Shown here: in pieces, positions 31,614 through 57,577 of the stretch
Numbering within the stretch: the stretch's first letter is position 1
How the letters are laid out: every line of letters begins with the position of its first letter
NCBI RefSeq assembly: GCF_000403455.2
Contig: NZ_KE159759.1
Span: 123,661-187,660, forward strand
Length of the DNA: 64,000 nucleotides
Source: Dorea sp. 5-2
GTDB taxonomy: Bacteria; Bacillota; Clostridia; Lachnospirales; Lachnospiraceae
Direction: 5' to 3'
The notes under the pieces: model-generated
What the model was told of the DNA's origin: nothing
What the model saw: the letters and a program-made list of their open reading frames with translations, nothing else
Databases searched by the model: none
Position numbers and translations under genes: made by a program

Positions 31614-32096
31614 CTATGGCTCATCTCCTGCAGGCGCCGGGTCTGAGACGCTTACCTTATGGTCGTACCATGTCCCTTTCTTCCCGATCAGCGCCAAGTC
31701 AAACTCTTCTTCCAACACCGGAACCGGCACATCGAATCCATAGACCTCCTCCGTGATACCGTCGCTGTACGTAACCTCATCCGTGGTGGGCAGAAGGGCT
31801 TGATCCTCTTCCTTCCGGGCATCCTTCGCAAGACCGGGATAGAGATTGACGATATTCTTAGAGGCAAGGGAAATATGTATCACCATCTCGCCGTTCTCTA
31901 CCGTCAGTGTTCCCTTTCCCTCACACGCTTCATTCACATGGAACATACTGCTGTCCGTATGAAATTCTGCCACATAAGTTCCGTCGGGCAGTTCCGTCAC
32001 ATTCGACGTTTTCTCTTCTTCGCTTCCCGCGTCTGCACAGCCCGTAAGCAGAAACACACTCATCAGCAGATATATACCTGTCTTCCTCCACTTCAT
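31614..32096 (-). CDS. NEAT-like domain lipoprotein
   Basis: A 160-residue lipoprotein: signal peptide with lipobox LLTGC (Cys20), then one domain (about 35-150) with LPDGTYVAEFHTDSSMFHVN, EGKGTLTVENGEMVIHISLAS and FDLALIGKKGTWYDHKVSV. The beta-rich layout DGxY...GKGTL.VENGEM...HxSLxS resembles the NEAT / iron-transport-associated surface domain, and parts match the proteins at 36447-37103 and 55916-57070. The family call is by eye. The ATG at 32096 follows GAGGTGA. It directly follows lipoprotein CbiK, suggesting both work on the outer face of the membrane. Confidence 0.65.
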   Translation of the reverse strand: MKWRKTGIYLLMSVFLLTGCADAGSEEEKTSNVTELPDGTYVAEFHTDSSMFHVNEACEGKGTLTVENGEMVIHISLASKNIVNLYPGLAKDARKEEDQALLPTTDEVTYSDGITEEVYGFDVPVPVLEEEFDLALIGKKGTWYDHKVSVSDPAPAGDEP

Positions 32097-32134
32097 CCGG
32101 ATCACCTCTTTCTTCTTGTTCTTGGCTTTGATCA

Positions 32135-33349
32135 TTAGCGGTCCATAACTTCCGCCGTATGCTGTACATATATCTTCTGGATGGCATCCACGGAACCAAG
32201 GCCTGTGATCTGCGCCTCCACACTGTCGAAACAGCCCGAAGCCTTGAAGCTGCTCATCCAGGAATCTTCATCCTCCCCTGCCATATCGTTATTGGCATGG
32301 TCGCCTGCCACGACCATGAGCGGACGCAGGATCACCTTCTTATATCCCGCCTGCTCTGCCGCCTCCCTCACCGCCTCACAGGAGGTCTCTTCCGGTTCTC
32401 CTTCCACCGTGCCGACAAACACATTCTCATACCCTAGATCTGTCATCTGTGCCTGCATCTGAGTGTATGACACCTTCGCCGTATGTGACGTCCCATGCCC
32501 CAGAAATACAAATGCCACGTCTTCCTCCTTCGCCGCATCCAGGCTGTCAAAACCGGCGTCCTTCACCGCTTCTTTGGTAATTGCCTTCGCAACGGCTTCC
32601 TTATCCGCATTGATCACAGAAGCGTCCGTGCCGACCTCGCCAAGCAGCGGTTCTGCCACCCTCACGGATCCGAACTTATCCTGGTATGTTTCCACTGCTT
32701 TCATCAACTCGTCATATTCCGCGCCATGCATCAGATGGGTGGGCTGTATCACCAGATTTTTAACCTGATTCGCCGCCGCACGCTCCAACGCCTGTTCCAT
32801 ATTGTCAATAGCTTCTCCGTCTCTTGCCAGCACATGGTTGATGATGATCTGCGACGTAAATGCCCTTCGGACCGACCAGTCCGGATACGCCGCCTCCATG
32901 GCGTCTTCGATCCCCTTGATATCCTGCGCACGGCTGTCATTGAAAGAAGTCCCAAAGCTTACCACCAGGATCTCATTTTCCCCGATGTCATCCTGATTCC
33001 GCGGGTCATCCTTCGCCGCGTCGCCGGTATCTTTACCGAAATAATCCGGATCGGCGTTCTTCCCCTCCACCAACTCCTTCTGGGAATCTGTCAACGCGTC
33101 CCATGCTTCCTTTGCTTTCTTACACTGCTTATCCGTCATATCCGTCCACTCCTGTACATAGATCGCATCGATCAGCGCCGCTGCCTCGTCGGCTTTTTTC
33201 TGATCCACATCTGTTTGCCCTTTTGCATCCGCCTTACTCTTTTCCGAAACCATATCCTCCTGTCCGCTGCTTCCTTCCGAACAGCCGGTCAGCGCCATTA
33301 CCCCAAGGATAACGCCTGTCAATAAAACAGTAACTGTCTTTTTCTTCAT
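32135..33349 (-). CDS. cbiK: Extracytoplasmic (lipoprotein) sirohydrochlorin cobaltochelatase CbiK
   Basis: A 404-residue protein. The N-terminus is a lipoprotein signal peptide with lipobox ALTGC (Cys23). A charged linker follows, including DALTDSQKELVEG near 85-97, a segment common in Gram-positive surface proteins. From about residue 125 it is CbiK: ILVVSFGTSFNDSR, INHVLARDGEAI, IQPTHLMHGAEYDEL (His) and FLGHGTSHTAKVSY (His). Cytosolic CbiK puts cobalt into sirohydrochlorin; a periplasmic CbiK that binds haem is known from Desulfovibrio. No cytosolic copy is in the window. The secretion signal makes a biosynthetic role puzzling; metal or tetrapyrrole handling at the surface is the alternative. 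Confidence 0.88.
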   Translation of the reverse strand: MKKKTVTVLLTGVILGVMALTGCSEGSSGQEDMVSEKSKADAKGQTDVDQKKADEAAALIDAIYVQEWTDMTDKQCKKAKEAWDALTDSQKELVEGKNADPDYFGKDTGDAAKDDPRNQDDIGENEILVVSFGTSFNDSRAQDIKGIEDAMEAAYPDWSVRRAFTSQIIINHVLARDGEAIDNMEQALERAAANQVKNLVIQPTHLMHGAEYDELMKAVETYQDKFGSVRVAEPLLGEVGTDASVINADKEAVAKAITKEAVKDAGFDSLDAAKEEDVAFVFLGHGTSHTAKVSYTQMQAQMTDLGYENVFVGTVEGEPEETSCEAVREAAEQAGYKKVILRPLMVVAGDHANNDMAGEDEDSWMSSFKASGCFDSVEAQITGLGSVDAIQKIYVQHTAEVMDR

Positions 33350-33392
33350 CTCTTTCTCCTTTTTCTTTGTAACACCTTTTCATTCTGAGGCT

Positions 33393-34895
33393 TTATCCAA
33401 CACACGCCGCGATCTCATCAAGCGTCGCATTCCGGGCAGAAACCGCCTGCATACCGGCTTTTTCGGCTGTCTGTGCGGTCTTCCTGCCGATGCATACTGC
33501 CTTCACTCTGTCATAAGGAAATGCTCCTAACATCCGGACAAATCCTTCCACCGTCGAACTGCTCGTAAATACCACCTTCGTAACGCTCCCGTCTTCCATG
33601 AAGGAACGAAGCCGCGCCGTCTGCCCCTCGAGAAATCTTGTGTCATAGACCGCCAGGTCCGTGAAGGTAAGCCGGGGATTCTTCTCAAGCTCCCGAAGGA
33701 TCTCCGAACCGCCTATGGACGACCTTGCAAGCAAGATCCGCGCCTCCTCCCTGATGTTCTCTGCAAGAAGCCTTCCCAGGGACGCGCCGTCATACTGATC
33801 CGGCATATAGTCGGCGCGGATCCCCCGCTTTCCAAGCGCCTCACAGGTGCCCTGCCCGATCACGGCGAACCTCATATGCGACACATGGCGGATATCCATT
33901 CCCGCTTCCAACAAAAGCTCGAAGAAACGCTCCACTCCATATGCCGAGGTAAATACCAGCACCTCATATTCTCCAAGCCTCTCCAGTTCCTTCCGGATCG
34001 CCGCAGCGCGTGCATGATCCGCAACCGGAACCGTCCGGATGACCGGAACAGAGAGTACCTCCGCCCCCAGTGACCTTAACTGCTCCTGAAGCTTGAAGCC
34101 CCGCTCGGACGGGCGCGTCACAACAATTCTTTCTCCTGACAGCGGAAGCTTATCATACCATGAGAACTGATCCGCAAGGCGGCAGACCTCCCCCACGACA
34201 ATGATAGACGGCGTCCGGATCTCCTGCCGCCTTGCTTCCTTTGCCAGAGTCGCAACAGATGCAACGATCCGCCTCTGCCCTGCCGTGGTTCCCTGCTGTA
34301 AGACGGCGGCAGGCATATCTCCATTCATTCCCGCGTGCAGAAGTCCCTCCATGATCTCCTCAAGCGCTCCTACTCCCATGAGGAATACCAGCGTTCCCCC
34401 CGTGCGGACCAGCGCTTCATAGTCTATCCCTTCCTCTTTCCCGGCTCTTTGATGTCCGGTAATGATATGAACGCTTGACACATAGTCCCTGTGCGTGACC
34501 GGGATTCCCTGGTATGCCGGAACCGCAATGGAAGAAGACACTCCCGGAACTACTTCGAAAGGAATCTTCGCCTCGCACAGCGCCTCCACCTCTTCGCCTC
34601 CCCTTCCAAACAGAAAGGGATCGCCTCCCTTAAGCCGTATCACCTTCTTGCCAAGCCTCGCCTCCCGGACTAAGATCTGATTGATCTCAGACTGGGGAAC
34701 CGTATGGTTCCCGGCGGATTTCCCCACGTCGATCCATTCCTTATCCGGTGGAAGCATCGCCAGGACCTCTCTTCCGACGAGCCTGTCATATACGATACAG
34801 TCGCCCGTATCCAGAAGGCTTCTTGCCTTCACGGTCAGAAGATCCGCCGAGCCCGGTCCGGCTCCGACAAGCCATACTTTTCCTGTTTTTCCCAT
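33393..34895 (-). CDS. cobA-hemD: Fused uroporphyrinogen-III methyltransferase / uroporphyrinogen-III synthase
   Basis: A 500-residue fusion. Residues about 1-245 are CobA/SUMT ([50 protein letters not shown]), making precorrin-2. Residues about 255-498 are HemD ([40 protein letters not shown]), closing hydroxymethylbilane to uroporphyrinogen III. Such fusions are common in Clostridia. The ATG at 34895 was preferred to one eight codons upstream. It lies 39 bp after hemC, its substrate supplier. Confidence 0.95.
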
Positions 34896-34934
34896 ATTTT
34901 CCCGTCTCTCCTCACACATATGTTATCCTGTCTC

Positions 34935-35822
34935 TCAGATATTTTCTTTTCCCAACATCTTCCTTGCAAGCAACGTCCCCAGCGCTTCGGGCATATCCCG
35001 GTCCCCTGTCACGCACATTTTCCGGGCGGTCCCTATCCCCGCGTCATAGTATAACCCCATTGCTTTCATACGCTTCTCATCCAGAATCTCTGCATAAACT
35101 CCGCCGGGCAAAGAACAGCCGCCGTTCAGATATGCCATATAAGCTCTCTCACAGCGGGCGCATGCGGCGGCGTCCGCATCAAAAAACCCCTCCAGGAAAT
35201 CATAGGAAAGATCCTTACGCCCCTGCACACAGAGAATCCCCTGTCCGGCAGCCGGTATCATCTCCTCCACCGTAAAGTACCTGCCGATGCGCCCTGCAAG
35301 GCCAAGCCGCTTTAAGCCTGCCGCCGCAAGGACCAACGCGCCGTATTCCCCCCCATCCAGCTTATCAAGCCTTGTCAGTACATTTCCCCTCACCGTCTTG
35401 ATCTCGGCGTCCGGGTACAGCTCTTTAAGCTGCAGGATCCTCCGGTTGCTGGAACAGCCGATGGGACTGCGCCCGTCATACGCCGCAGTTCCTCTGGGAA
35501 GTACGAGCACGTCCCGGGCATCCTCTCTGGCAGAAAATCCAATGATCGGCAGGTCTTTCGGAACCTCCATGGGCATATCCTTCAGAGAATGTACGGACAG
35601 TTCCGTCTCCCCGTTTCTCAATGCAATGTCCAGTTCTTTGACAAATACTCCCTTCTCTCCGATCTCATCTAACTTCTTTGATAAGATCCTGTCCCCGGTT
35701 GTCGTAAGCTTTACAAGCCTTGCCTCATATCCCCCGCAGCGGCTCCTGATATATTCCGCCACGATTTCCGCCTGTATACATGCAAGCCTGCTTCTCCTTG
35801 TTCCTATTCTAATCTTCCTCAT
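34935..35822 (-). CDS. hemC: Porphobilinogen deaminase (hydroxymethylbilane synthase)
   Basis: A 295-residue HemC that polymerises four porphobilinogens. IGTRRSRLACIQ near 5-16, the catalytic Asp in HSLKDMP near 78-84 and the dipyrromethane-cofactor Cys in LNGGCSLPGG near 232-241 are present. It feeds the following CobA-HemD fusion. hemA, hemL and hemB are not in the window. Confidence 0.95.
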   Translation of the reverse strand: MRKIRIGTRRSRLACIQAEIVAEYIRSRCGGYEARLVKLTTTGDRILSKKLDEIGEKGVFVKELDIALRNGETELSVHSLKDMPMEVPKDLPIIGFSAREDARDVLVLPRGTAAYDGRSPIGCSSNRRILQLKELYPDAEIKTVRGNVLTRLDKLDGGEYGALVLAAAGLKRLGLAGRIGRYFTVEEMIPAAGQGILCVQGRKDLSYDFLEGFFDADAAACARCERAYMAYLNGGCSLPGGVYAEILDEKRMKAMGLYYDAGIGTARKMCVTGDRDMPEALGTLLARKMLGKENI

Positions 35823-35862
35823 ATTCCATCCTTCTTCATATCCTGTCTTTTCAGCTTCTTTC

Positions 35863-36450
35863 CTAACCGTACAAGGAATCCCTGACCACGCCTCTTAATT
35901 TCGAAGCCGCTCCCACCGCAGCCACGCACAGGGCAAAATCCGGTCCCGCCGTGAGAAGGAATCCATTTACCAGCAGGATCTTCCATGTGACCTCCTGGAA
36001 GATCAGAAAACGGCACACGATAAAATAATATAGCATTCCGATCCCATAATAGACCAGAAGCCCCGCTGCGGAGATCATAAGAAGTTTCCCAAACCGCAGG
36101 ATCCCAAACCGCTCGCACATCCATGCCATACTATATGCCGCGGCTGCAAATCCCAGAAGATACCCGAAGCCGGGTCTTAACAGATAAGAAGGCCCGCCTC
36201 CCGAAGCGAACACAGGCACCCCGGACAACCCGATCAGCAGGTACACCCCCACGCTGACCCCCGCGAGCCGCTTGTTCAGCAGAAGCCCCGCAAGCAGCAC
36301 GAAGAACCACTGCAGGGTAAAATGCATGGGGATCGGTTCTGTCGGCAGTGTGACCTTGAGAAACGCACCCACGGCGATCAACGCCGAGAACAGACCGCCC
36401 GCCGTCAATTCCCGGATACTTAAAAACTGTTTTTGACTCTTTATATTCAT
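35863..36450 (-). CDS. bioY: BioY-family ECF transporter S component
   Basis: A 195-residue integral membrane protein with about six helices matching BioY: LPTEPIPMHFTLQWFFVLLAGLLLN near 34-58 and GVPVFASGGGPSYLLRPGFGYLLGF near 76-100. BioY imports biotin, alone or with an ECF module. The usual PTGGYLLGF is changed to PGFGYLLGF. No bio genes are near; it sits between hemC and a NEAT-like protein in a corrin operon and overlaps the preceding gene by 4 bases (ATGA). Biotin is the default cargo; a tetrapyrrole-related cargo is speculative. Confidence 0.75.
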   Translation of the reverse strand: MNIKSQKQFLSIRELTAGGLFSALIAVGAFLKVTLPTEPIPMHFTLQWFFVLLAGLLLNKRLAGVSVGVYLLIGLSGVPVFASGGGPSYLLRPGFGYLLGFAAAAYSMAWMCERFGILRFGKLLMISAAGLLVYYGIGMLYYFIVCRFLIFQEVTWKILLVNGFLLTAGPDFALCVAAVGAASKLRGVVRDSLYG

Positions 36451-37103
36451 CTTCCTGCTCCCGAGTAATCTCTCTTTCTCCTCTTATTCGTAAAGTAATT
36501 CAATATCCCGCCCGCTACGATGATACATGCCGCCATGATCAGCACACGCTTAGCGCCTTCCCTTGGAAGGCTGCTCTCACTGCCGACAGAATCCGAATAG
36601 AAGTGAAGCGTATATTGGATCTCGTGAGGCGCGCCCATCGCCACGGTATCCGCAATGACCGGCATTTCCTCATCGAATGCCAGGACGGGGATCTGAAACA
36701 TCGAATTTCCGCCGTCCGCATTTTCATTATAATAAGTCTCGCCTTCCACGATCATATAATCATAGTTCGAGCTGCTCCATGTGATCTGCGCAAAATATTT
36801 CCCGTCCTTTACCTCTAACAGTGTCGGAGATTCCACGCTCGCCTTCCCGCTTCCGCCCGATAAGACCACGTCCACCGCATATCTCCCGTCCGCAAGTCCC
36901 CCGGCAGACGAAGCCGACGCCGCCTGTCCATCCATCCCTGATGAACCCTCCGTCGCCTGTCCGTCCTTCCCGGATGAAGCTGACGCCGCCTTTACATCCT
37001 CATGGGTCATCATGCCTGCTGCCGTCTGTCCGGCGATGAGGACAGTCACAAGAAAGACACGGCGCAATGCCGCCCGCACTTTCCTGTCGATCCGTTTTCC
37101 CAT
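36447..37103 (-). CDS. Membrane-anchored NEAT-like domain protein
   Basis: A 218-residue surface protein: basic N-terminus and signal segment (about 10-35), a Ser/Gly/Ala-rich linker with repeated DGQA and ASASS units, a domain at about 75-180 (ADGRYAVDVVLSGGSGKASV, LEVKDGKYFAQITWSSSNYDYM, HEIQYTLHFYSDS), then a C-terminal helix (about 190-208) and a basic tail. The domain aligns by eye with that of the protein at 55916-57070, sharing SGGxGK, the SSxNYDYM/SGSYSYV strand and HEIxYT. The ATG at 37103 follows GGGGGAG. It overlaps bioY. Confidence 0.7.
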   Translation of the reverse strand: MGKRIDRKVRAALRRVFLVTVLIAGQTAAGMMTHEDVKAASASSGKDGQATEGSSGMDGQAASASSAGGLADGRYAVDVVLSGGSGKASVESPTLLEVKDGKYFAQITWSSSNYDYMIVEGETYYNENADGGNSMFQIPVLAFDEEMPVIADTVAMGAPHEIQYTLHFYSDSVGSESSLPREGAKRVLIMAACIIVAGGILNYFTNKRRKRDYSGAGR

Positions 37104-37200
37104 ATAGCTCCCCCTCTCTTTCTTCCTTTCCGCCTGTGTCATTACCGTCTTCACTGCCTATGCCTTCCTTATCCGGCATGAATCTCCCGCCAGGCATGCC

Positions 37201-37932
37201 TCACAGGTTCTTCTTCTTATACAGAAAGCCAAACGCAAGCAGCGACAGCACGGCAAGATAGACTGCCAGTATCCCGATCCCCGTATAGGAAAATGCTTCC
37301 CCGTTGGCAATACTGCGGATCATACTGCTGGCCTGGGAGAGCGGCAGATACTGGATAACCTCCCGCAAGCCATGGGGTATATTGTCTGCCGCAAAGAATG
37401 TATTGCACAGATAAGCCATCGGCATGATCACATAATTGGAGAAACGCGGTACATCCGTATGCGTCCTGGCATAGAATGACACCACGACTCCCAGGGTCGA
37501 GAACACGGCGCCGTTCAAAAACATGATGAGAAACGACCATCCGTTGAAGCAGAGCGGAAGCCCGATGGGAAGCACCAACAGGATGATGATGCATCCGGCA
37601 TAGATTCCCCGCAGGCTTCCCCCGATGATCTGGCCTGCAATGAACTGCCACAGAGGCGTCGGCGAGATCATCACCTGATCGAAGGCTTTCTCATACAGAC
37701 GCTGCACGTTCAGGTTCTGCGCGATCGCATTGAAGCTTCCATTCATCGTGGTGAGCGCGACCACGCCGGGGATCAAAAACTGCAGATACGGCTGTCCGTG
37801 GGAGATCGTCTGAATCCCCATCCCGAACACAAGGATATACATCAGAGGGGCGATCATCGCCGCCAATGTGATCTTGTAAAAATCTCTTCTAAATTCCACC
37901 CATTTTTCCCATAATACGGTTACAATACCCAT
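37201..37932 (-). CDS. ABC-2 type permease
   Basis: A 243-residue membrane protein with about six helices of the ABC-2/DrrB/NodJ type (PLMYILVFGMGIQ near 30-42, YEKAFDQVMISPTPLWQFIAGQIIGG near 83-108, NTFFAADNIPHGLREVIQYLPLSQA near 183-207). It ends 97 bp before the NEAT-like gene and starts 3 bp after its ATPase partner. ABC-2 systems usually export lipids, polymers or small hydrophobic molecules. Its reason for being in a corrin operon is unknown. Confidence 0.82.
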   Translation of the reverse strand: MGIVTVLWEKWVEFRRDFYKITLAAMIAPLMYILVFGMGIQTISHGQPYLQFLIPGVVALTTMNGSFNAIAQNLNVQRLYEKAFDQVMISPTPLWQFIAGQIIGGSLRGIYAGCIIILLVLPIGLPLCFNGWSFLIMFLNGAVFSTLGVVVSFYARTHTDVPRFSNYVIMPMAYLCNTFFAADNIPHGLREVIQYLPLSQASSMIRSIANGEAFSYTGIGILAVYLAVLSLLAFGFLYKKKNL

Positions 37933-37935
37933 ACG

Positions 37936-38781
37936 CTACGCTTCTCCTGTTCCTTTTTTCCCCGCTCTCTCAAGAAATACATCCTCAAGCGTCGTATTCC
38001 TCAGCGAAGCGTCTCTTTTTAATCCTTTCAGATACCGGATCGCTTCCTCCTGTGTCCCAAAGAAGCGGCTTTCCATCTCCTCTTCCGACACATGATCCAC
38101 CGCGTACCTTCCAAGCCGTCCGATCATTGCGCGCGGGGTGTCTACCTCGTTAAGCCTTCCGCGGTCCATCAGCCCCACACGGTCACAGAGGATCTCTGCC
38201 TCTTCCATGTAATGGGTGGTGAGCAGGATGGTCAGACGGTTTTGGTTCAGCTTCTTAAGCAGATTCCACATCTGCCGTCTCGCCAGCGCATCCATTCCCG
38301 CCGTCGGCTCGTCCAGAAGGAGAATGTCCGGCTTTGTAAGCAGCGCGCGGCACACCATCAGCTTCCGCTTCATGCCTCCTGACAGCTTGCGCACGGTGCG
38401 CCTTCTATAATCCATCAGGCCGCAGAACTCAAGCAGCTCCCGGATCTTCTCCCTTCTCTCCTTCTTCGGCACGAAATACAGCCTTCCCTGGTATTCCATG
38501 ATCTCTTCTATGGTCATGTCCTGGCGCATGGAATACTCCTGGGTCACGACGCTGATCCTGCGCTTCAGGGCGGTATTCTTCCTGGTCAGCTTCTCTCCGT
38601 CGATCAGGATCTCGCCTTCGGTCGGCAAAAACAAGGTTGACAGCATCCCGATCGTCGTGGATTTCCCCGCGCCGTTTGGCCCGAGCAGCCCGAAGAAGCC
38701 TCCGGTCTCAATGGTGAGGTTCAGGTTGTTCACAGCCGTGAAATCATCATATTTCTTCGTAAGATTCTTTAATTCAATCAT
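37936..38781 (-). CDS. ABC transporter ATPase, DrrA/CcmA-like
   Basis: A 281-residue ATPase: Walker A GPNGAGKSTT near 34-43, signature LSGGMKRKL near 135-143, Walker B ILLLDEPTAGMD near 155-166 and an H-loop HYMEEAE near 192. It pairs with the ABC-2 permease. The start overlaps the end of cbiL by 8 bases, so it is translated from the same transcript. Substrate unknown; efflux of a porphyrin or corrinoid intermediate is one possibility. Confidence 0.85.
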   Translation of the reverse strand: MIELKNLTKKYDDFTAVNNLNLTIETGGFFGLLGPNGAGKSTTIGMLSTLFLPTEGEILIDGEKLTRKNTALKRRISVVTQEYSMRQDMTIEEIMEYQGRLYFVPKKERREKIRELLEFCGLMDYRRRTVRKLSGGMKRKLMVCRALLTKPDILLLDEPTAGMDALARRQMWNLLKKLNQNRLTILLTTHYMEEAEILCDRVGLMDRGRLNEVDTPRAMIGRLGRYAVDHVSEEEMESRFFGTQEEAIRYLKGLKRDASLRNTTLEDVFLERAGKKGTGEA

Positions 38782-39466
38782 GCTTGTTCTCTTTTACTAC
38801 CACGATGGAATAATAGCTCGCCCTCTCCGGCATATCGTCCACGGTCTCATAAATGTGTTCATCCGGCATACCGCAGTTCTCCACCATGATCCCCTTTATC
38901 TCCTTCTCTTTAAGCCTGTCCTTCACTGCGGAAATCCTGGACGCCGCTTTCATCAGGACTTTACTGCCCGGGTAAGTCAGCGCTTCCTCGATCTCATAGG
39001 TGGAGGGAATGATATGGAGCTGCTGTGCACGGTCTGCCAGGCTGTCTCCAAGCTTTGCCGCCACCGCACAGAAAGACGGGATCCCGTTTATGATCTGTGT
39101 CTCATATCCCCGCGCCCTGACGATACGGTGGATGTAGATATAGGTAGAATAGATGGTCGGATCTCCAAGTGTGAGATACGCCACGTCCTTCCCCTGTTCT
39201 AACTGTTCTATGATCCTGTCCGCCGCCGTCTCGTAATTCTGCTTCAGGATCTGCATATCCTTCGTCATAGGCGTGGACAGATTCAGACATTCCTTCCCGT
39301 CAAGATCCTTCACGATTCCCGCCGCGATCCTGTAACTTACCGCATGCTCCCGTCCTTCTGCGGGAACGGCGATCACGGGACAGTTTTTTACCGTCTCCGC
39401 CGCAAGGTATGTCATAAGCCTTGGATCGCCCGGACCGACGCCCACGCCGTATAATGTTCCTTTCAA
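38774..39466 (-). CDS. cbiL: Precorrin-2 / cobalt-factor II C20-methyltransferase
   Basis: A 230-residue SAM-dependent methyltransferase. The N-terminal GTLYGVGVGPGDPRLMTYLA and YLTLGDPTIYSTYIYI near 92-107 are typical of CbiL/CobI, with NGIPSFCAVAAKLG near 120. I chose the TTG at 39466 (AAAGGGTG upstream), which makes the protein begin at the family position; an ATG twelve codons upstream at 39502, overlapping the previous gene by ATGA, is the alternative. Confidence 0.9.
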   Translation of the reverse strand: MKGTLYGVGVGPGDPRLMTYLAAETVKNCPVIAVPAEGREHAVSYRIAAGIVKDLDGKECLNLSTPMTKDMQILKQNYETAADRIIEQLEQGKDVAYLTLGDPTIYSTYIYIHRIVRARGYETQIINGIPSFCAVAAKLGDSLADRAQQLHIIPSTYEIEEALTYPGSKVLMKAASRISAVKDRLKEKEIKGIMVENCGMPDEHIYETVDDMPERASYYSIVVVKENKHD

Positions 39467-39498
39467 TGTTATCACCCTTTCTGCATTTTTAGAAAGCC

Positions 39499-40554
39499 TC
39501 ATTCCATCATATACAAGAAAGCATTGCAGATACATGCCGCTATATTGCTTCCTCCCTTTCGCCCCCTTGCCACAATGTAAGGCGTATCCTTAAGTGTAAG
39601 GATCAACTCTTTTGACTGCACCACATTCACGAACCCCACGGGGACCGCGATGACCGCCTCCGGCAGAAGACGCCCTTCCCGGATCAGTTCATACAGGCGG
39701 ATCAGCGCCGTAGGCGCGTTCCCGACGGCGAAGATCAGCTTCGCATCAAGCTTTGCCGCCTTCTCCATGCTGACAGCCGCGCGGGTTAGTCCGCGGCGTT
39801 TTGCTTCTATGGCAACGTCTTCGTCGCTCATGAAACAATATACCTGTCCGCCGTATTTCTTAAGCCGGTTCTTGTTGATCCCTGCCTTCCCCATCTGTGT
39901 GTCTGTCACAATGGACGCGCCGTTTTTGACCGCCTCCTGTATCTTCTCTACCGCATTTTCGGAAAATACCAGATTCTTCGCATACTCAAAATCCGCGCTG
40001 GTATGGATGCATCGCTTTACGATGGCTTCTGTTCCGGGAACAAGCGGCGTATCTTTCAGCTCCTCTGTAATGATCTCGAAACTCTTCTTCTCTATTTCCT
40101 CCGGAGGGATCCGGTCGCACCGGACCTCCTTCAAAACCTCCGGCGCCGCCTCTTCACACATGTCCCGGCGTCTTGTCTTGATCGCCGTCCCGATCCCGCA
40201 GACTATCCGGTCAACCTGTTCTGCATCCGCTGCCAGCCTGGTGCAGATCCTGCCTGCCGTCTCGCGGTATCTGCGCTCGAACGGATCTGCCGGCACCAGC
40301 CCATACCCGATCTCGTCACTGATGACCACGATCCCTGGATTGATCTTGGAAAGCCCGCACAGCAGATCAAGATACTGCCTGCCTTCCTTCTCCTGCATGG
40401 CGCGGCGGATATATGCCTCCAGATGATAAATCCCTTCGCATGTCCTGACTGCATCATAAGGGCAGTCTCTTCCGTCCGCCCAGGCGATCCCGGGATATTT
40501 TCTCCTGGCGTAATCTGTCTTCCCCTGAAAGGAACCTCCTATGATCATCTTCAT
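39499..40554 (-). CDS. cbiC: Fusion of a CobU-like domain and precorrin-8X methylmutase CbiC
   Basis: A 351-residue fusion. Residues about 1-130 are CobU-like: P-loop IIGGSFQGKTDYA near 4-16 and ISDEIGYGLVPADPFERRYRETAGR near 77-101. They lack the CobU RIxxH segment with the guanylyl-accepting His. Residues about 145-351 are CbiC: catalytic His in RCIHTSADFEYA near 187, TDTQMGKAGINK near 218 and VPVGFVNVVQSKE near 307. CbiC moves the C11 methyl group to C12 in the corrin ring. The start overlaps the stop of the full cobU by 4 bases. Confidence 0.9.
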   Translation of the reverse strand: MKMIIGGSFQGKTDYARRKYPGIAWADGRDCPYDAVRTCEGIYHLEAYIRRAMQEKEGRQYLDLLCGLSKINPGIVVISDEIGYGLVPADPFERRYRETAGRICTRLAADAEQVDRIVCGIGTAIKTRRRDMCEEAAPEVLKEVRCDRIPPEEIEKKSFEIITEELKDTPLVPGTEAIVKRCIHTSADFEYAKNLVFSENAVEKIQEAVKNGASIVTDTQMGKAGINKNRLKKYGGQVYCFMSDEDVAIEAKRRGLTRAAVSMEKAAKLDAKLIFAVGNAPTALIRLYELIREGRLLPEAVIAVPVGFVNVVQSKELILTLKDTPYIVARGRKGGSNIAACICNAFLYMME

Positions 40555-41111: not shown

Positions 41112-41126
41112 TGCTACTCCCCCCTT

Positions 41127-42638: not shown

Positions 42639-42682
42639 CTCCTTCTCCTTCTTCCCATTCACTGCCTGGTCATAGCCTGGGG

Positions 42683-43723: not shown

Positions 43724-43812
43724 TTATCTTATGCCGTCCTTTCTTATGTTTTGCACTGCCTGGGCGCCGCCGTGTACAATTCAGAAATCCTCTGCATCCT
43801 CGTCCGCTCATC

Positions 43813-45362: not shown

Positions 45363-45388
45363 CGTTCTTTCATCCGTTTCTTAATATA

Positions 45389-46135: not shown

Positions 46136-46145
46136 ACGATCTACC

Positions 46146-49863: not shown

Positions 49864-49900
49864 CTGATACCCCGTCCCTTCTTTCTGTCTCTTCCCTTTA

Positions 49901-51415: not shown

Positions 51416-51436
51416 CTCTTCTCTTCCTTCCCTTCT

Positions 51437-52567
51437 TCATTTCTTTACTTCTTCCGACAGCTTCACTGCCTTCCTTGTCATACCGAGGATCCCGTACTTT
51501 GGCGAGAACATGACCGCACCGATCTCAAGGCTGTCTCCGGCGCGCTTTTCCAAGTGGTCTTCCATTTTCGCCATGATCGTCTTCATTGCCGGCTCTAAGA
51601 GTTTCTCCTCCGACATCCGCGCCAATGCCTCTGCGGTCGTGACGCTTCCCATGATCTCACGGATCACCTCCGTGCGGGCTCCGGCGAGCGCCGCATGCGC
51701 CGCCAGTATCTCGAACCTTCCGTCCGCCTGCTGCGAATGTGTATTCATGATTCCCGCGGCAACCTTGATAAGCTTCCCAATATGCCCCGCAAAAAGCAGC
51801 CCTTTCATCCCAAGCCTCACCGCGATATCAATGGTTTCTCCGATATAATTGCTGCACTTAACCGCCGCCTTCCCCTGATATCCCCAGGTATCACTGAGAA
51901 AATCACTTCCATAATTCCCGGGCACGGCATAACACACCTCATAACCGCCGCTTTTTATGACGCTCATCTGCGCATAGATCGTATCCACCAGCGCCTGCTC
52001 ACTCATGGGTTCCACGATCCCGGTCGTCCCAAGGACAGAGATCCCTCCTTCGATCCCGAGCCTTGGGTTAAAGGTCCGCCTGGCAAGCTCTGTCCCTTCC
52101 GGGATCGAGATCACGACAGATATCCCCTTCTCATATCCATAAGAGGAACACACACCCTCCACCGCTTCCCGGATCATCTGTCTTGGGATTCGATTGATCG
52201 CAGGTTCTCCCACAGCCTGTTCAAGCCCCTTCCTGGTCACGATGCCGATCCCTTCGCCTCCCCGGATCTTAACCCCTTTCTCTTCGGTCTTCTCAACCTT
52301 CGCATAGACATAGACTCCGTCGGTCACGTCCGGATCGTCTCCGCTGTCTTTTTGGATCGCGCAGACGACTCCGCCTGGATTCCTTACGATCCGTTCCACA
52401 TCCAGATAAAGCGTAACCCCTTTCGGCGTACGCAGCTTCACCTGCCCTACCGTCTCTTCTCCAAGAAGCATCTGCACCGCCGCCTTTGCTGCCCCCGCGG
52501 CGCAGCTCCCCGTCGTGTATCCGGTCCGCAGCTTCTTCTGATTCTTCCACACATACTGACTATCCAT
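51437..52567 (-). CDS. cbiD: Cobalt-precorrin-5B C1-methyltransferase
   Basis: A 376-residue CbiD, found only in the anaerobic route: LRTGYTTGSCAAGAAKAA near 13-30, DDPDVTDGVYVYAKV near 76-90, NPRLGIEGGISVLGTTGIVEPMSE near 169-192. It methylates C1 after ring opening by CbiG. The ATG at 52567 has GGAAG 8 bases before it; the upstream frame to 52591 overlaps the ATPase gene and has no site. Confidence 0.94.
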   Translation of the reverse strand: MDSQYVWKNQKKLRTGYTTGSCAAGAAKAAVQMLLGEETVGQVKLRTPKGVTLYLDVERIVRNPGGVVCAIQKDSGDDPDVTDGVYVYAKVEKTEEKGVKIRGGEGIGIVTRKGLEQAVGEPAINRIPRQMIREAVEGVCSSYGYEKGISVVISIPEGTELARRTFNPRLGIEGGISVLGTTGIVEPMSEQALVDTIYAQMSVIKSGGYEVCYAVPGNYGSDFLSDTWGYQGKAAVKCSNYIGETIDIAVRLGMKGLLFAGHIGKLIKVAAGIMNTHSQQADGRFEILAAHAALAGARTEVIREIMGSVTTAEALARMSEEKLLEPAMKTIMAKMEDHLEKRAGDSLEIGAVMFSPKYGILGMTRKAVKLSEEVKK

Positions 52568-52572
52568 ATCCC

Positions 52573-53682
52573 TTACTTCCAATACACACATTCTATATCA
52601 TCCCTGGCTTTTACTTCTTCTAATAAGTCCCGAAGCCGCTCGTTACAGCTCCCCCACGGGATATCCGTATAGATCACCCTGCTGCACTTTGACACTGCCC
52701 GTCTCGCTTCTTCATACACAGGATCACTGATCTCCTGAAAAGGCTTCTCAAGGATCACCTGTGCCGCAAGATGTCTGGCAAGCTGATAATCCACGTCATT
52801 CTGATACAGGATTCCCGCAATAAATGGAATCCCCTCCCTCTGAAGCCGCCGATAGACCGGGATCCCGCCGCCGCACGCTGAGACCACCATCGTCGCAGCC
52901 TCGCCCTCCGGCGGCGGAAGCTCGATACTGCCGAAGACCGGATCAAAACTTCCCTTCTCCATCCCATATAACTCCCGGATAAACGCTTCCTTCAGAAGAT
53001 CTTCCGGCGCTTTGCAGCCGTACGCCTCTCCCGCCTTCACCGGCAGCACCTTGTCTGATACCTTGCCCGCAAGATCGATCTCATGCAGGGACATGACGAC
53101 CGTGATCCCCTGCTCTTTTGCCATCTTGCGTAAGATGGCAAGAAGCTCTAACTTATACTTGATATCCAGAAATGACGTCGGTTCATCCAGCACCAGGATC
53201 TCCGGCTCCTGGCAGATCGCCCTTGCAAGCAGGATCCGCTGCTTCTGCCCGTCGCTTAAGGAGGTAAAAAGCCGGTTTCTAAGATTCCCGGCGCTCACGA
53301 GCTTCATCGCCTCGTCTACCTTCTCTTCGTCCTCCCTGCAAAGGATACCAAGCCTCCCGGTATAGGGATACCTGCCGGTGGCAACGATATCATGGCAGGT
53401 CATAAGCTCCGGCCTTACACGGTCAGTCAAGACCACCGCCATCTTCCGGGCGAGCTCCCGGTAGGTAAGCTTACTTAGTTCTTTCTCTCCGATGACGACT
53501 CTTCCTCCCAGGATCTGAAGCTGCTTCGTGATACTCTTAAGGATCGTCGACTTCCCCGCACCGTTTGGTCCCACCAGCGTCAGGATCTCGCCTTTCCTTA
53601 AGTGAATACATACCTGGTTGAGCAATGCCCTGCCCCCATAGCCTACCTTAAGATCCTCCGTACGAAAATAATGATCCCCCAT
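52573..53682 (-). CDS. BtuD/FecE-type importer ATPase with extra C-terminal domain
   Basis: A 369-residue ATPase. Residues about 5-255 are the usual domain: Walker A GPNGAGKSTI near 38, signature SLSDGQKQR near 140 (LSDGQ instead of LSGGQ), Walker B ILVLDEPTSFLD near 163-174 and H-loop SLHEIDLA near 196. Residues about 265-369 form an added domain (TMVVSACGGGIPVYRRLQREGIP, QLARHLAAQVILEKPFQEI, SRVIYTDIPWGSCNE) that I do not recognise. It pairs with the permease just upstream and works with the binding protein. Placement in a B12-controlled operon suggests corrinoid import. Confidence 0.87.
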   Translation of the reverse strand: MGDHYFRTEDLKVGYGGRALLNQVCIHLRKGEILTLVGPNGAGKSTILKSITKQLQILGGRVVIGEKELSKLTYRELARKMAVVLTDRVRPELMTCHDIVATGRYPYTGRLGILCREDEEKVDEAMKLVSAGNLRNRLFTSLSDGQKQRILLARAICQEPEILVLDEPTSFLDIKYKLELLAILRKMAKEQGITVVMSLHEIDLAGKVSDKVLPVKAGEAYGCKAPEDLLKEAFIRELYGMEKGSFDPVFGSIELPPPEGEAATMVVSACGGGIPVYRRLQREGIPFIAGILYQNDVDYQLARHLAAQVILEKPFQEISDPVYEEARRAVSKCSRVIYTDIPWGSCNERLRDLLEEVKARDDIECVYWK

Positions 53683-53683
53683 A

Positions 53684-54703
53684 CTACTGCTTCTCCTTCT
53701 CACGATGTACCAACATCCAGATAACCACCGGCGCCCCAAAGACAGACGTCACCGTACTGATATTCAGCTCCAGCGGCGCAAAAGCCATCCGCGCGGCGAG
53801 ATCGCAGAACATACAGAACACCGCGCCGCCAAGGAACGAAGCCGGTATCACCACCAACGGCTTCGAGGTATGGAGCGCCAGCTTCACAAGCTGCGGAACG
53901 GCGATCCCCACGAATGAGATCGGGCCTGCAAATGCAGTCACACAGGCAGAGAATACACTGGAGAGCACGATCAATATGACCCGGAAGATCCGGATATCCA
54001 CCCCCATGCTCCTGGCGTAAGCCTCGCCCATCTGATAGGCGCCGATCGGCTTGGACATCAGGAATGTAAAAGCAAAGGTTACGGCTACGACCGCAGCAGC
54101 AACTTTCACATTCCCCCAATTCATCCCGGAGAAACTCCCCATCGACCATCCCCGCAGGCTTACGATATCCGAATCCTCCGCAAAGGTTATGATAAAATCC
54201 GTAACTGCCGAACAGATATAAGAGATCATGATCCCTGCAACCAGAAGCGCCGACATATTCCGAAGCCTTTTTGCCGCCAGCAGCACAAAGCTTACCGATA
54301 TCAGTGAGCCTCCAAAGGCAGAACCGATCAGCGCAAACGACGTCATACTGCCGATGCTGCCTGCAGAACATATCATCACCAACGCTACCATCATCTTTGC
54401 TCCCGACGATATCCCAAGGATAAACGGTCCTGCGATCGGATTATGGAAGAATACCTGGAGCAGGAAACCAGACAGGGACAACGCCCCTCCTAAGATCGCA
54501 GCCATCAGGATCCGGGGCAGGCGGATCTGCCAGATAATATGGTATCCCGTTCCTTCCTCCCGCCCGGCGGTCAGGATCTCTAAGATCTCCTTCACCGATA
54601 TGTTCACCGTCCCCGTATTGATATTGATCAGCACCATTAGAAAAAGCGCCAGAAACATCACCGTAAATACTGCCGCATAGCGGCTCCTCCTACTCTCTGT
54701 CAT
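53684..54703 (-). CDS. FecCD/BtuC-family ABC permease
   Basis: A 339-residue membrane protein with about ten helices: LPRILMAAILGGALSLSGFLLQ near 61-82, NPIAGPFILGISSGAKMMVALV near 87-108 and FAGPISFVGIAVPQLVKLAL near 265-284 are family hallmarks. The family imports cobalamin, haem or ferric siderophores. It starts 4 bases inside the binding-protein gene (overlap) and ends 1 base before the ATPase gene. Confidence 0.92.
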   Translation of the reverse strand: MTESRRSRYAAVFTVMFLALFLMVLININTGTVNISVKEILEILTAGREEGTGYHIIWQIRLPRILMAAILGGALSLSGFLLQVFFHNPIAGPFILGISSGAKMMVALVMICSAGSIGSMTSFALIGSAFGGSLISVSFVLLAAKRLRNMSALLVAGIMISYICSAVTDFIITFAEDSDIVSLRGWSMGSFSGMNWGNVKVAAAVVAVTFAFTFLMSKPIGAYQMGEAYARSMGVDIRIFRVILIVLSSVFSACVTAFAGPISFVGIAVPQLVKLALHTSKPLVVIPASFLGGAVFCMFCDLAARMAFAPLELNISTVTSVFGAPVVIWMLVHREKEKQ

Positions 54704-55950
54704 TCCTCCACCCTGTATAAAAATGTCATCTCATCCTCATCGCCCTCGGTCAGCATGATATGGATATCCGCGATCATCTCAGATACAAGATCCGTCGCCT
54801 GATAAAATTCCTTATCCGTACAGAAGACATTTCCTTCCTTCACCGCTTTCATATCCTTCAAGACCTCGTCCTTGGCAGTCAGTTCCTCCATGGAATCTAA
54901 TTCCTCGTCGATCGAAGCATTATAGATCAGGTAATCCGCGTCAGCCGCAGCTGCATAGAATTCCTCCATCGAGATCGCCGCCGTGCCCTCTTTCTCCACA
55001 ACATCGCAAAAAGGATAAGCGCCGCCTGCGATCTCGATCATCTTCGCTATATAATCCGTGCCTGTCCTTATCACCGCCTGGCCGCTTGAATTGATATAGA
55101 AATACACCACCGACTTGCCGGTATTCCCGGTCCCTTCAAGCTCATGAAGGATCTTTGTCTGCTCGTTAAAAAACGCATCCGCCTCTTCTTCTTTGCCAAG
55201 CAGCGCGCCATAGACCCTGATCCATTCCACTCTGCCCAGCGGATGCCCTTCATTGCTGGAGCAGTCGATCAATACCGGGATCTCCATCATCTGAAGCATC
55301 TCCTGTACCTTCGGCGTGTGATGGATCATCTGGGATTCCACCGCCAGGCCGCACCCTTCGTCCACCAGCATCTCATAATCCGGCTCACTGTATTTCCCCG
55401 CAAATTTTATCCTGCCTTCTTCCATAGCCTCTCTTGCGGCATCCACATACCAGTCATCCGCCTTAAGCCCGCTGAACCTGACCGCATCTAGCCCGTCCAG
55501 CGCATGGAATAATGCCATCGTCGCAGTACCGGCGACATAGATGCGCGCAAGCGGCTTTTGCAGAACCACAGTCTCTTCCGGCAGATCCTCCGGCACAGCC
55601 GCCCCCTCCGGCACCACCAGATAGGTAAGGCTGTCTTCTACAAGGATTGCCTGATAGCCGTCATTATAATAATAGATATGAAAGCCCTCCGCAAATTCCG
55701 GCTTAAGCATCGACTGACAGGTAAGGCCCCCGATCTTCGGCGCATCTTCTATACCGTACTGCCGCCCCTTTTCTTTCTCCCAAACCTGCGCTCCTTCTTC
55801 CGCCGCCGTCTGTACATCAGGAACCTCTTTCTCCTGCCGCCTGCCGCAGCCGCCTGCCGCGATCCCCGCCGTAAGCAGCAGCACCAGGATCTTGAACCCT
55901 GCTGATAAAACACCCTTACGAAACTTCCCCGCACCCAAAGATAATTTCAT
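54700..55950 (-). CDS. ABC-transporter substrate-binding lipoprotein (BtuF/FecB-type)
   Basis: A 416-residue lipoprotein: signal peptide with lipobox AAGGC (Cys35), an acidic linker, then a two-lobe binding protein of the cluster A-2 type (DAPKIGGLTCQSMLKPEFAEGF near 71-92, RIYVAGTATMALFHAL near 146-161, MAEIAGG-type stretch KMIEIAGGAYPFCDVV near 314-329, TDLVSEMIADIHIML near the end). GGAGG lies 7 bases before the ATG at 55950; another ATG six codons upstream is possible. It delivers cargo to the following permease and ATPase. Its first lobe is paralogous to the preceding gene. Confidence 0.88.
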   Translation of the reverse strand: MKLSLGAGKFRKGVLSAGFKILVLLLTAGIAAGGCGRRQEKEVPDVQTAAEEGAQVWEKEKGRQYGIEDAPKIGGLTCQSMLKPEFAEGFHIYYYNDGYQAILVEDSLTYLVVPEGAAVPEDLPEETVVLQKPLARIYVAGTATMALFHALDGLDAVRFSGLKADDWYVDAAREAMEEGRIKFAGKYSEPDYEMLVDEGCGLAVESQMIHHTPKVQEMLQMMEIPVLIDCSSNEGHPLGRVEWIRVYGALLGKEEEADAFFNEQTKILHELEGTGNTGKSVVYFYINSSGQAVIRTGTDYIAKMIEIAGGAYPFCDVVEKEGTAAISMEEFYAAAADADYLIYNASIDEELDSMEELTAKDEVLKDMKAVKEGNVFCTDKEFYQATDLVSEMIADIHIMLTEGDEDEMTFLYRVEE

Positions 55951-57070
55951 ACACTTTCCTCCATTCATCCTGCCCCTCCTTGGTCTTCTCCCTGGACGCC
56001 AGGTCAACGAACATCGGGATCCCCAGCTCCTCGCAGTACTCCAAAGTCTCCGTATATTTCCCCCGGCGCGAAGCAGATCCCTCTGCCGGAAGGATCTCTG
56101 CCGGCATGACCGCCAGATCACATCTCTCCTTCACAAGCGCCTTATAGTCAACGTCGTCATACGTACCGCCGAATACGGCATCTTGCTCTTTGGCCGAGCC
56201 CTCCGCTTCCTCTATACCGATCAGTGCAAGATGCTTCCATTGTCCGGAATCCTCCATCCACGCAAGAATCGGCAGAGACGCGGCGTATGCATGGAAGGCA
56301 GCTTCTCCTTCCCTTTGCGCCGGACGCCTGATCACCGTCATCTCACGTTCAAGCCCTGCCGGGATCCCGGCGTCAGCCGGCGCCACCAGATAGCGCAGGA
56401 TCTTCGTATCCTCCTCTGTCTGAGGGTCGGTCTCGATGCAGGTGATCCCGCCTTCATAATGAAAGATCTTATAATTCGCGGCATATTCCGCCTCCGTCTC
56501 TTCTATAAACGTCAATCCCGCGATCTTCGGCGCTGTCTTACTTAACTCTGACGGCGACAGCCCGTTATCCCCCGCAGAAGCCTTTGCCCCGGATCCTTTG
56601 CTGTCTTTTGCTTCGATGTACACGAAGACGGTGTAGGAAATCTCGTGTGCAGACGACATCTTTGTCGTGCATCCAATGACCGTATTATTCTGATTCAACC
56701 GCACCGGTATCTCAAAAGTAGAAGTATCCTCCGTGTTTACTCCCTCGTAGGTTCTGCCCCCTACCTTGACATAACTATAAGAACCACTGTCAAAGACCAG
56801 CGACGCATACGCCCTGCCATCCTGGACCGACACTTCCGGACAGCTTATCGTCACCTTCCCGGTTCCTCCGGAGAATCCAAACTGATCCGGCGTATACCTT
56901 CCGTCCTCTAGGCGCGCCAGATCCGCCTTGCCCGCGGCATCTGTAACATCTGCCTGCTCCGGTCCCGGCGCAGGCATCTCTTTTAAGAACCCACTGCAAA
57001 GGACGAGCAGGATACAGAAGACAGCCACGGCCAGGATCACCCGCCGTTTTCTCTTCGGACTCATTCCCAT
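55916..57070 (-). CDS. NEAT-like domain fused to one lobe of a substrate-binding protein
   Basis: A 384-residue membrane-anchored protein: N-terminal helix (about 9-27), a NEAT-like domain (about 50-155: LEDGRYTPDQFGFSGGTGKV, VQDGRAYASLVFDSGSYSYV, HEISYTVFVYIEA), then a segment (about 180-380) homologous to the N-lobe of the next gene product (TAPKIAGLTF, FGGTYDDVDYKALVKERCDLAV, EELGIPMFVDL, EWRKVYEIIFG). It stops where the lobe ends, so the second lobe is absent. It is the first gene after the cobalamin riboswitch. AGGGGGA precedes the start at a long spacing of about 11. It overlaps the next gene by 35 bases. Confidence 0.75.
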   Translation of the reverse strand: MGMSPKRKRRVILAVAVFCILLVLCSGFLKEMPAPGPEQADVTDAAGKADLARLEDGRYTPDQFGFSGGTGKVTISCPEVSVQDGRAYASLVFDSGSYSYVKVGGRTYEGVNTEDTSTFEIPVRLNQNNTVIGCTTKMSSAHEISYTVFVYIEAKDSKGSGAKASAGDNGLSPSELSKTAPKIAGLTFIEETEAEYAANYKIFHYEGGITCIETDPQTEEDTKILRYLVAPADAGIPAGLEREMTVIRRPAQREGEAAFHAYAASLPILAWMEDSGQWKHLALIGIEEAEGSAKEQDAVFGGTYDDVDYKALVKERCDLAVMPAEILPAEGSASRRGKYTETLEYCEELGIPMFVDLASREKTKEGQDEWRKVYEIIFGCGEVS

Positions 57071-57555: not shown

Positions 57556-57577
57556 TGTTCTGTTATGCTTTATATCT

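Follow-up and report, generated by a model that had tools for sequence, protein, structure and literature searches.

A cobalamin riboswitch operon of Dorea sp. 5-2 and a conserved unit of lipoprotein CbiK, NEAT-like domains and FecCD-type importer in its relatives

The Isd system combines several differently anchored NEAT domains, whose haem-ligand motif is YxxxY, with a FecCD-type importer. CbiK of Salmonella is cytosolic, and Desulfovibrio possesses a cytosolic partner enzyme in addition to the exported CbiKP. According to the passages considered of three papers (PMC545781, PMC11124144, PMC4063343), the CbiK of Desulfovibrio is exported, a B12-element regulates cbiK-cbiL and btuCDF, and the CbiK-bearing delta-proteobacteria of one study are reported to be without known cobalt transporters, while CbtX is predicted as a cobalt transporter (PMC545781, in part). 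The Iht system (IhtA-E) of P. gingivalis is proposed to serve haem iron, and this bacterium is stated not to make haem, in the part of PMC10913741 considered.

The window analysed here, a stretch of 64,000 nucleotides from Dorea sp. 5-2, contains an operon (Table 1) with likenesses to all three systems. It shares with Isd the predicted NEAT fold, several differently anchored domains and a FecCD-type importer, but its domain A appears to lack the second tyrosine of YxxxY and its domain B to carry histidine for the first, and Isd is not known to include a CbiK partner or to be controlled by cobalamin. With Desulfovibrio CbiKP it has in common an exported CbiK in a B12-element locus, whereas NEAT domains are absent from the descriptions of that locus in the passages considered. 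Like Iht, it combines a binding protein, a permease and an ATPase with an exported lipoprotein of the CbiK family; Iht has an outer-membrane receptor, while the window unit has NEAT domains, a cobalamin riboswitch and a corrin-ring operon (PMC10913741, in part). The first-pass annotation regarded the system as a candidate for an undescribed one, and our literature search found neither a description of a CbiK-NEAT-importer unit nor sirohydrochlorin as a metallophore; the unit is not described in the passages considered of PMC7689651, PMC10913741, PMC13227078, PMC545781, PMC8123684, PMC11124144, PMC4162548 and PMC4063343.

Operon content and the conserved unit

Table 1. Features of the operon in the window, in the order of transcription
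Feature	Position	Strand	Remarks
Cobalamin riboswitch RF00174	57319..57561	-	62.3 bits, E 5e-13; precedes 55916-57070 and importer genes
N-terminal helix, B-type NEAT-like domain (56609-56911), partial binding-protein-like domain	55916..57070	-	
Substrate-binding protein	54700..55950	-	Peripla_BP_2, E 1e-34; start picked by eye
FecCD-type permease	53684..54703	-	Top NCBIfam model BtuC, under cut-off
Importer ATPase (labelled BtuD)	52573..53682	-	ORF read and position in conserved unit, no family search behind the name; start picked by eye
CbiD, corrin-ring synthesis marker	51437..52591	-	
Tetrapyrrole methylase, putative CbiL	38774..39535	-	TP_methylase match; CbiL is our reading
ABC-2 transporter ATPase	37936..38781	-	
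ABC-2 transporter permease	37201..37932	-	
Signal, B-type NEAT-like domain (36576-36896), C-terminal helix	36447..37103	-	
BioY-family protein	35863..36450	-	
HemC, porphobilinogen deaminase	34935..35822	-	
CobA-HemD fusion	33393..34919	-	TP_methylase and HEM4
CbiK cobaltochelatase, predicted exported lipoprotein	32135..33349	-	Adjoins domain A gene
Lipoprotein with A-type NEAT-like domain (31629-31988)	31614..32096	-	YxxxV motif; alternative upstream ATG gives 31614-32135

The three surface proteins from which the first-pass annotation started are all present as minus-strand open reading frames, and the different anchor ascribed to each can be recognised by eye, namely the lipobox LLTGC (31614), a C-terminal helix (36447) and an N-terminal helix (55916). 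Their placement in one B12-riboswitch operon together with a FecCD/BtuC-type importer likewise stands. The best of the listed NCBIfam models for the permease is the BtuC equivalog, at 207.9 bits and so under its cut-off of 334, and the binding protein scores 28 bits against the IsdE equivalog (cut-off 298.65). No minus-strand terminator-like sites were seen by eye in the gaps between operon genes, the scan being weak evidence, with 20 and 17 terminator-like sites against 9.4 and 10.4 in shuffles, and 3 and 10 promoter-like sites against 9.7 and 10.3. Two features had been overlooked earlier. CbiK, beside domain A, is an exported lipoprotein, and the 55916-57070 protein resembles in its C-terminal half the binding protein of the next gene (34%, E 3.8e-12). 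The 55916-57070 protein is without the C-terminal part of that neighbour and is like a short form of the large multi-domain proteins found in relatives.

In relatives the unit runs B12 riboswitch, lipoprotein CbiK, domain A, domain B, binding protein, FecCD permease and ATPase. Domain B is also present in 76 of the 80 loci picked for domain A, where the gene order recurs, and fusions (CbiK-A, CbiK-A-B, A-B, A-B-binding protein and B-binding protein) join its members. A cobalamin riboswitch lies within 1.5 kb upstream of the unit in at least 36 of 45 unit genomes, and directly upstream in all eight scanned loci of other families. Isolates with the unit include Roseburia sp. 831b, Sellimonas caecigallum SW451 and Petralouisia muris NM01. 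Late cobamide genes (CbiP-CobT-CobU-CobS-CbiB) often follow the unit, an arrangement that fits corrinoid import too, and HemC with CobA-HemD stands directly beside the lipoprotein CbiK in this window and in two further loci (L098 and L177). Type II loci contain A' and B domains without CbiK, two of them (G040 and G142) in CbiD-positive genomes where no CbiK was found.

NEAT-like domains and lipoprotein CbiK

The three domains had been described as related, with a common DGxY and GGxGK layout. Between the two B domains the sequence similarity is direct (37% identity, E 3.8e-15), while domain A is tied to them as a remote relative by profile comparison alone (hhalign A-B 94.5%; through intermediates, A-A' 99.6% and A'-B 98.1%), and it contains DGxY but not GGxGK. 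The Pfam NEAT family (PF05031) matches the 36447 protein below cut-off (E 0.003; 18.4 bits, gathering score 32.8) and gives zero matches at E<=1 in the 31614 and 55916 proteins, while weak matches occur in 27 of 40 B relatives (E<=0.1), and in 14 of 31 A and 7 of 12 A' relatives (E<=1). For the NEAT question, structure models were used in place of the PDB sequence search, where the 36447 and 55916 proteins and the domain profiles had no significant NEAT match (best NEAT E 0.42). The AlphaFold model of B finds 26 PDB chains at E<=1e-3, all Hbp2 or Isd (TMq 0.59-0.75), most of which carry the NEAT name in the PDB listing; IsdX1, IsdC and IsdA among them we take to be NEAT proteins. The model of A has as its top match, and its sole one at E<=1e-3, the NEAT chain 4myp_A (E 5.8e-4, TMq 0.57), followed by weaker matches to NEAT chains as well as to GFP and further beta proteins. 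Both domains are thus predicted to adopt the NEAT beta-sandwich fold, and profile and structure comparison, which could have shown the domains to be unrelated, did not do so. In pattern searches made without structural superposition, HxxxY occurs in 132 and YxxxY in 2 of 145 B domains, and YxxxV in 109 of 111 A domains, while the pattern fits just 2 of 53 A' domains, which were trimmed at the motif. The tyrosine of A and the histidine of B are taken to occupy the presumed canonical axial-ligand position.

The window CbiK matches PF06180 (E 4e-71), scores 182.9 against the NCBIfam model SiroCoChCbiK, for which 400 is needed, and also matches haem-binding FetB (9b86), which we take to be IhtB, and the D. 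vulgaris chelatase (2xvx). It retains E211, H285 and H351, and the equivalents of Salmonella CbiK His145, His207 and Glu89, the last presumably with a role in that enzyme, are kept in 82/82 CbiKs. The lipobox pattern is found in 77 of 81 CbiK frames, and in 113 of the 124 CbiKs linked to A, A' or B (several of the other 11 are cut at locus ends) against none of 23 unlinked ones; by eye, each of the 30 genomes with no other CbiK found shows a lipobox in its unit CbiK, although the G112 locus begins inside the signal. The window CbiK has the family signature and active-site residues of the cobaltochelatase, and the linked CbiKs, judging from their export signals, probably do not share the cytosolic location of the Salmonella enzyme.

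Distribution of the unit

The sample comprises 150 mutually related genomes of the same family, and the statistics are given without tree correction. The unit occurs in 44 of 87 CbiD-positive genomes against 1 of 63 CbiD-negative ones (p 2e-12), and 51 of the 52 genomes bearing domain B are CbiD-positive, so that the domains are not widespread outside B12 loci, the second circumstance named beforehand as telling against the earlier proposal. Three CbiD-negative genomes (G031, G051 and G065) have weak A matches, which span query residues 3-78, for the most part signal sequence, and are read as chance.

In 30 of the 45 unit genomes, that of the window included, the search turned up no CbiK besides the lipoprotein of the unit, and a second CbiK match is present in the other 15. 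CbiMNQO with cytosolic CbiK answers the same need, cobalt for sirohydrochlorin, but by free-ion import, and a short CbiM is found in 0/30 of these unit-only genomes against 23/35 with CbiK away from the domains (p 5e-9), or 0/24 against 19/31 when genomes with a completeness of 90% or more are counted, with a CbiM-type limit of 320 aa that was fixed after the lengths were known. Full-length CbiM/NikM of any kind occurs in 7 of the 30, leaving weak or partial matches in G066, G091 and G147 out of the count, and of the 33 genomes in which all CbiK is outside the unit, 12 likewise lack short CbiM. Seven CbiD-positive genomes are without any CbiK, four of which (G003, G040, G094 and G142) have domain B. 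A hidden cytosolic chelatase was sought in CobN, found in 0/150 genomes, and CbiX, of which 86 of the 87 matches listed lie inside CbiK genes and the other in G084, without the unit; this candidate was rejected. The ABC-2 permease was likewise ruled out as a general ring exporter, as close relatives (E<1e-100) occur in 6 of 73 genomes searched, its own included, which is the only one of the 30 unit-only genomes to have it; no general exporter for the metal-free ring emerged from this search.

Explanations of the unit

The first-pass annotation proposed a wall relay for a corrinoid, cobalt complex or other tetrapyrrole, of which the predicted fold, the importer, the riboswitch and the link to B12 loci stand, while the ligand is not supported as written. 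With CbiK exported, the likely function is no longer uptake alone but import combined with an extracytoplasmic insertion of cobalt. Because of the gene distribution, we favour, at close to even chances, a system that acquires cobalt at the cell surface for making B12 anaerobically, for whose direction of flow, ligand and external chelatase activity we infer the following. On the outer side of the membrane, the lipoprotein CbiK would load a tetrapyrrole with cobalt, most probably the cell's own sirohydrochlorin, released by a putative exporter; domains A (Tyr) and B (His) would bind the cobalt-tetrapyrrole and hand it to the binding protein, the FecCD/ATPase importer would carry it inward for cytosolic Cbi enzymes to carry on the corrin ring, and the riboswitch would turn the unit on at low B12. 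More tentatively, the cell's own sirohydrochlorin may be a secreted or surface-displayed cobalt metallophore, relayed when loaded by His/Tyr NEAT domains and imported, with the first corrin metal insertion extracytoplasmic and replacing a cobalt-ion importer. Points weighing against the favoured reading are the missing general exporter, the second CbiK and the CbiM/NikM of some unit genomes, the non-unit genomes without short CbiM, the CbiD-positive genomes without CbiK and the late cobamide genes that often follow the unit.

Some gut B12 makers carry a B12-controlled surface set consisting of a cobalt-inserting enzyme, domains that resemble haem binders and an importer, by which a ring molecule may receive cobalt outside the cell before it is taken in. 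If true, external insertion would explain the cobalt supply of many Lachnospiraceae that have corrin-ring genes but no importer of the CbiM type, and it would hint at what other exported CbiK enzymes do (D. vulgaris CbiKP and P. gingivalis IhtB). NEAT domains would then serve more than haem, and a central step of biosynthesis would take place at the cell surface.

Riboswitch control, the late cobamide genes and the closeness of the permease to BtuC would also suit corrinoid salvage, where cobinamide or cobamides of neighbouring cells are captured and imported by the NEAT-like domains together with the binding protein and the BtuCD-like importer, and the exported CbiK is a corrinoid receptor or repairs and remetallates damaged rings; we consider this unlikely, as the unit is nearly absent from CbiD-negative genomes, where salvage should count most, and as it leaves unexplained the kept chelatase residues and the 30 CbiD-positive genomes in which no CbiK but the exported one was found. 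Quite improbable is a haem-iron system as proposed for IhtB, in which the CbiK-like lipoprotein strips iron from NEAT-caught haem and iron or haem is imported: cobalamin control, the cbi operon setting, near-restriction to CbiD-positive genomes and complementarity with CbiM speak against it, despite the NEAT fold, many solved members of which are listed with haem, the FetB and D. vulgaris chelatase matches, the weak IsdE match and the Iht precedent (PMC10913741, in part). Still less probable is scavenging of foreign cobalt-tetrapyrroles or cobalt, in which the own ring is not exported, CbiK loads or handles rings from other microbes and the importer takes the cobalt complex; the failure to find a general exporter and the type II loci agree with it, but the ring-making HemC and CobA-HemD adjoin the lipoprotein CbiK in three loci.

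As to a possible phage origin, five unannotated faecal contigs labelled 'Bacteriophage sp.' match the 36447 protein.

Related NEAT-like domains in a cobalamin operon

The first-pass annotation had described three related NEAT-like surface domains in one B12-riboswitch operon and read them as a wall relay for a corrinoid, cobalt complex or other tetrapyrrole; the observation holds in the main and proves more interesting than stated. All three proteins are encoded on the minus strand, within a cobalamin operon. The genes from 57070 down to 31614 appear to form one operon, as all lie on a single strand and are separated by no more than about 100 bases (ORF coordinates). The two B domains match each other directly (37% identity, E 3.8e-15), while the A domain, from the lipoprotein, is joined to them only by profile-profile comparison through an intermediate type, A' (A-A' 99.6%, A'-B 98.1%, A-B 94.5%; profiles from 31 A, 12 A' and 40 B sequences).

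Features of the window operon (window coordinates)
Feature	Position	Strand	Remark
Cobalamin riboswitch	57319-57561		same operon
B-domain protein	55916-57070	minus	resembles short type II protein
ABC-2 transporter pair	37201-38781		adjoins CbiL and a B-domain protein
B-domain protein	36447-37103	minus	
BioY-family protein	35863-36450		between B-domain protein and HemC; likewise in L098 and L177
A-domain lipoprotein	31614-32096	minus	

The NEAT assignment is carried by structure and not by Pfam, where one window protein matches the NEAT family below the curated cut-off and 27 of the 40 B, 14 of the 31 A and 7 of the 12 A' domains match at lax limits. Structure prediction gave confident models (pLDDT 91.7 and 93.1), and both find NEAT first, strongly for B (26 matches at E<=1e-3, every one a chain of Hbp2 or an Isd protein) and more weakly for A, with one match at E<=1e-3 (TMq 0.57) and, below it, NEAT structures mixed with unrelated beta proteins. 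On these models, A and B may be counted as remote NEAT-fold domains lying outside Pfam NEAT by threshold. The haem motif of NEAT domains is YxxxY. In a pattern search, 132 of the 145 B domains carry HxxxY and two carry YxxxY (the 11 others differ or are unmatched), while YxxxV is found in 109 of the 111 A domains; the His/Tyr exchange at one place of the motif suggests, at the level of sequence, that His may be the metal ligand used by B.

The source genome (6.14 Mb, 80 contigs) is 97% complete and 8% contaminated; most named relatives belong to the Lachnospiraceae. The A domain is matched best by L098, a locus from an uncultured Dorea (86% identity), with identical surrounding gene order. The ring-making genes HemC and CobA-HemD directly precede CbiK in the window; a BioY-family protein also lies near CobA-HemD in L183.

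The CbiK-NEAT-importer unit across the phylum

Among the 80 loci chosen for A (the best 80 of at least 551 relatives), B is present in 76, and the order CbiK, A, B, binding protein, FecCD permease and ATPase recurs, with neighbours fused in many ways. A occurs in 18 and B in 15 of 398 genomes of the phylum. In other families, CbiK adjoins A or A' in 13 of the 15 genomes with such a match (the exceptions, G443 and G241, have weak A' matches in frames of 463-2419 aa) and likewise in all 12 genomes with B, and in 8/8 loci scanned CbiK is directly preceded by a cobalamin riboswitch. The riboswitch is also directly upstream of CbiK in L213 and heads the operon, before CbiL, in L227. A conserved, B12-controlled unit of exported CbiK, NEAT domains and importer is well supported, and its existence is highly probable. 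L218 and L223 have divergent operons with a cobalamin riboswitch on each; that preceding CbiD is of the AdoCbl-II type.

The type II form (L178-L182, L184-L187) comprises large proteins with A' and B, mostly ending in a binding-protein-like stretch, with CbiK absent in and beside the protein. A binding protein follows in 9/9, permease and ATPase in 7/9 (neither was detected in L186 and L187), and CbiD is present in all nine genomes. As the protein at 55916-57070 resembles type II in a short form, the window operon seems to combine the CbiK-bearing and type II forms.

Exported CbiK and its genomic distribution

The gene before A encodes CbiK (PF06180, E 4e-71) with a lipoprotein signal in its sequence; sequence comparison with the PDB relates it to three proteins only, namely Salmonella CbiK, FetB (a haem-binding protein) and the chelatase 2xvx of D. 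vulgaris. Equivalents of Glu89, His145 and His207 are identical in all 82 aligned CbiK sequences (that of the window and 81 contributed by the 80 named loci, the short CbiK of L139 among them), the two histidines of Salmonella CbiK being named in PMC7689651. A tree of 96 of 147 sequences (all 23 unlinked to the unit, 72 linked, and L139's short form as its own group) places the 72 linked CbiKs within a supported group of 74. This group includes two non-exported members, one in G019 and the other, fused to HemC, in G081. The L139 short CbiK, beside A'-B and an ABC-2 pair, branches outside it with a long branch. A single main origin of the linked CbiKs with later changes is likely; a label count needs three changes, and the bootstrap had not converged. 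The G081 frame (L094) has 577 aa, its N-terminal part reading as HemC, and other CbiK frames of about 520-610 aa without the unit in G021, G026, G028, G059, G090 and G133 may also be HemC-CbiK.

In 150 same-family genomes, one per genus, the unit (CbiK within 4 kb of A, A' or B) was found in 45, of which 44 encode the corrin-ring marker CbiD: 44/87 CbiD-positive vs 1/63 CbiD-negative genomes (p 2e-12, kinship ignored), the single latter case being G063, 89% complete. Cobalamin riboswitches are common (at least 124/150), so that adjacency rather than presence counts; among the riboswitches listed, at least 36/45 unit CbiKs have one no more than 1.5 kb upstream. This is a lower bound, and the window's own riboswitch is about 24 kb upstream of its CbiK.

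The unit CbiK is the sole CbiK found in 30 of the 45 unit genomes, and a lipobox was read by eye in 30/30 of these (in G002, G119, G128 and G147 the script first matched another part of the frame; the G112 locus starts inside the signal). CobN was found in 0/150 genomes, and 86 of the 87 CbiX matches listed lie inside CbiK genes, the remaining one being in G084.

CbiM was searched in 80 genomes, all 45 with the unit and 35 of the 39 whose CbiK lies elsewhere (all except G026, G124, G130 and G141). Full-length matches were assigned to the CbiM type in ORFs of <=320 aa and to the NikM type in longer ORFs, a length divide which we assume and which was chosen after the lengths were known. CbiM-type importers occur in 0/30 genomes with the unit CbiK alone, 2/15 with a second CbiK match and 23/35 of the rest (p 5e-9, as for all following values with kinship ignored); weak or partial matches in G066 (contig end), G091 and G147, all of the first group, are uncounted. 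Excluding G058 and G121, in which other parts of the genome encode a long CbiK and A/B domains, the rest give 21/33 (p 1e-8); genomes at least 90% complete give 0/24 vs 19/31 (p 5e-7), and any full-length CbiM/NikM match 7/30 vs 26/35 (p 6e-5).

A possible cobalt supply outside the membrane

The best reading, which we hold tentatively, is that cobalt for B12 is supplied by the unit outside the membrane. Cells that have corrin-ring genes would need some route for cobalt into the ring; exported CbiK may insert it outside, and the loaded ring would then be imported, which would explain at once the lack of a CbiM-type importer and the only cobaltochelatase being an exported one. The ABC-2 pair of the window operon is a candidate exporter of the metal-free ring here, but close relatives of its permease occur in only 6/73 genomes. 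Seven CbiD-positive genomes are without any CbiK match (G003, G018, G040, G052, G094, G127 and G142; G018 and G052 are <90% complete, and the A'-B locus of G003 ends at a contig edge), and four of them have B domains, which would suit a relay for a cobalt complex rather than loading of the cell's own ring. In L139 and L227, the ABC-2 pair is joined by a short CbiK, that of L139 being without a signal, and such pairs are possibly a separate export unit.

Within full text whose coverage leaves out most subscription papers, no description of such a system was found for a NEAT domain with a cobalamin riboswitch, for CbiK with a NEAT domain or, going by titles and the openings of abstracts, for a NEAT domain with cobalamin. 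According to PMC545781, a B12-element regulates cbiK-cbiL and btuCDF in Desulfovibrio, and the CbiK-bearing delta-proteobacteria studied have no known cobalt transporter, CbtX being predicted instead; this is a possible independent parallel. Annotated records show parts of the unit but no notion of the system: in the single plasmid record matched, from Roseburia sp. 831b, a fusion of CbiK, A and B is annotated 'sirohydrochlorin cobaltochelatase'. After it come a substrate-binding protein, an 'iron ABC transporter permease' and an ATPase, and upstream there is a cobalamin riboswitch. A TwoAYGGAY RNA lies between this riboswitch and CbiK on the opposite strand (L250, 10436-10605). Unannotated 'Bacteriophage sp.' faecal contigs (MT835897.1, MT836069.1, MT836329.1, MT835545.1 and MT837982.1) encode B-like domains and may be bacterial sequences deposited under a phage name.
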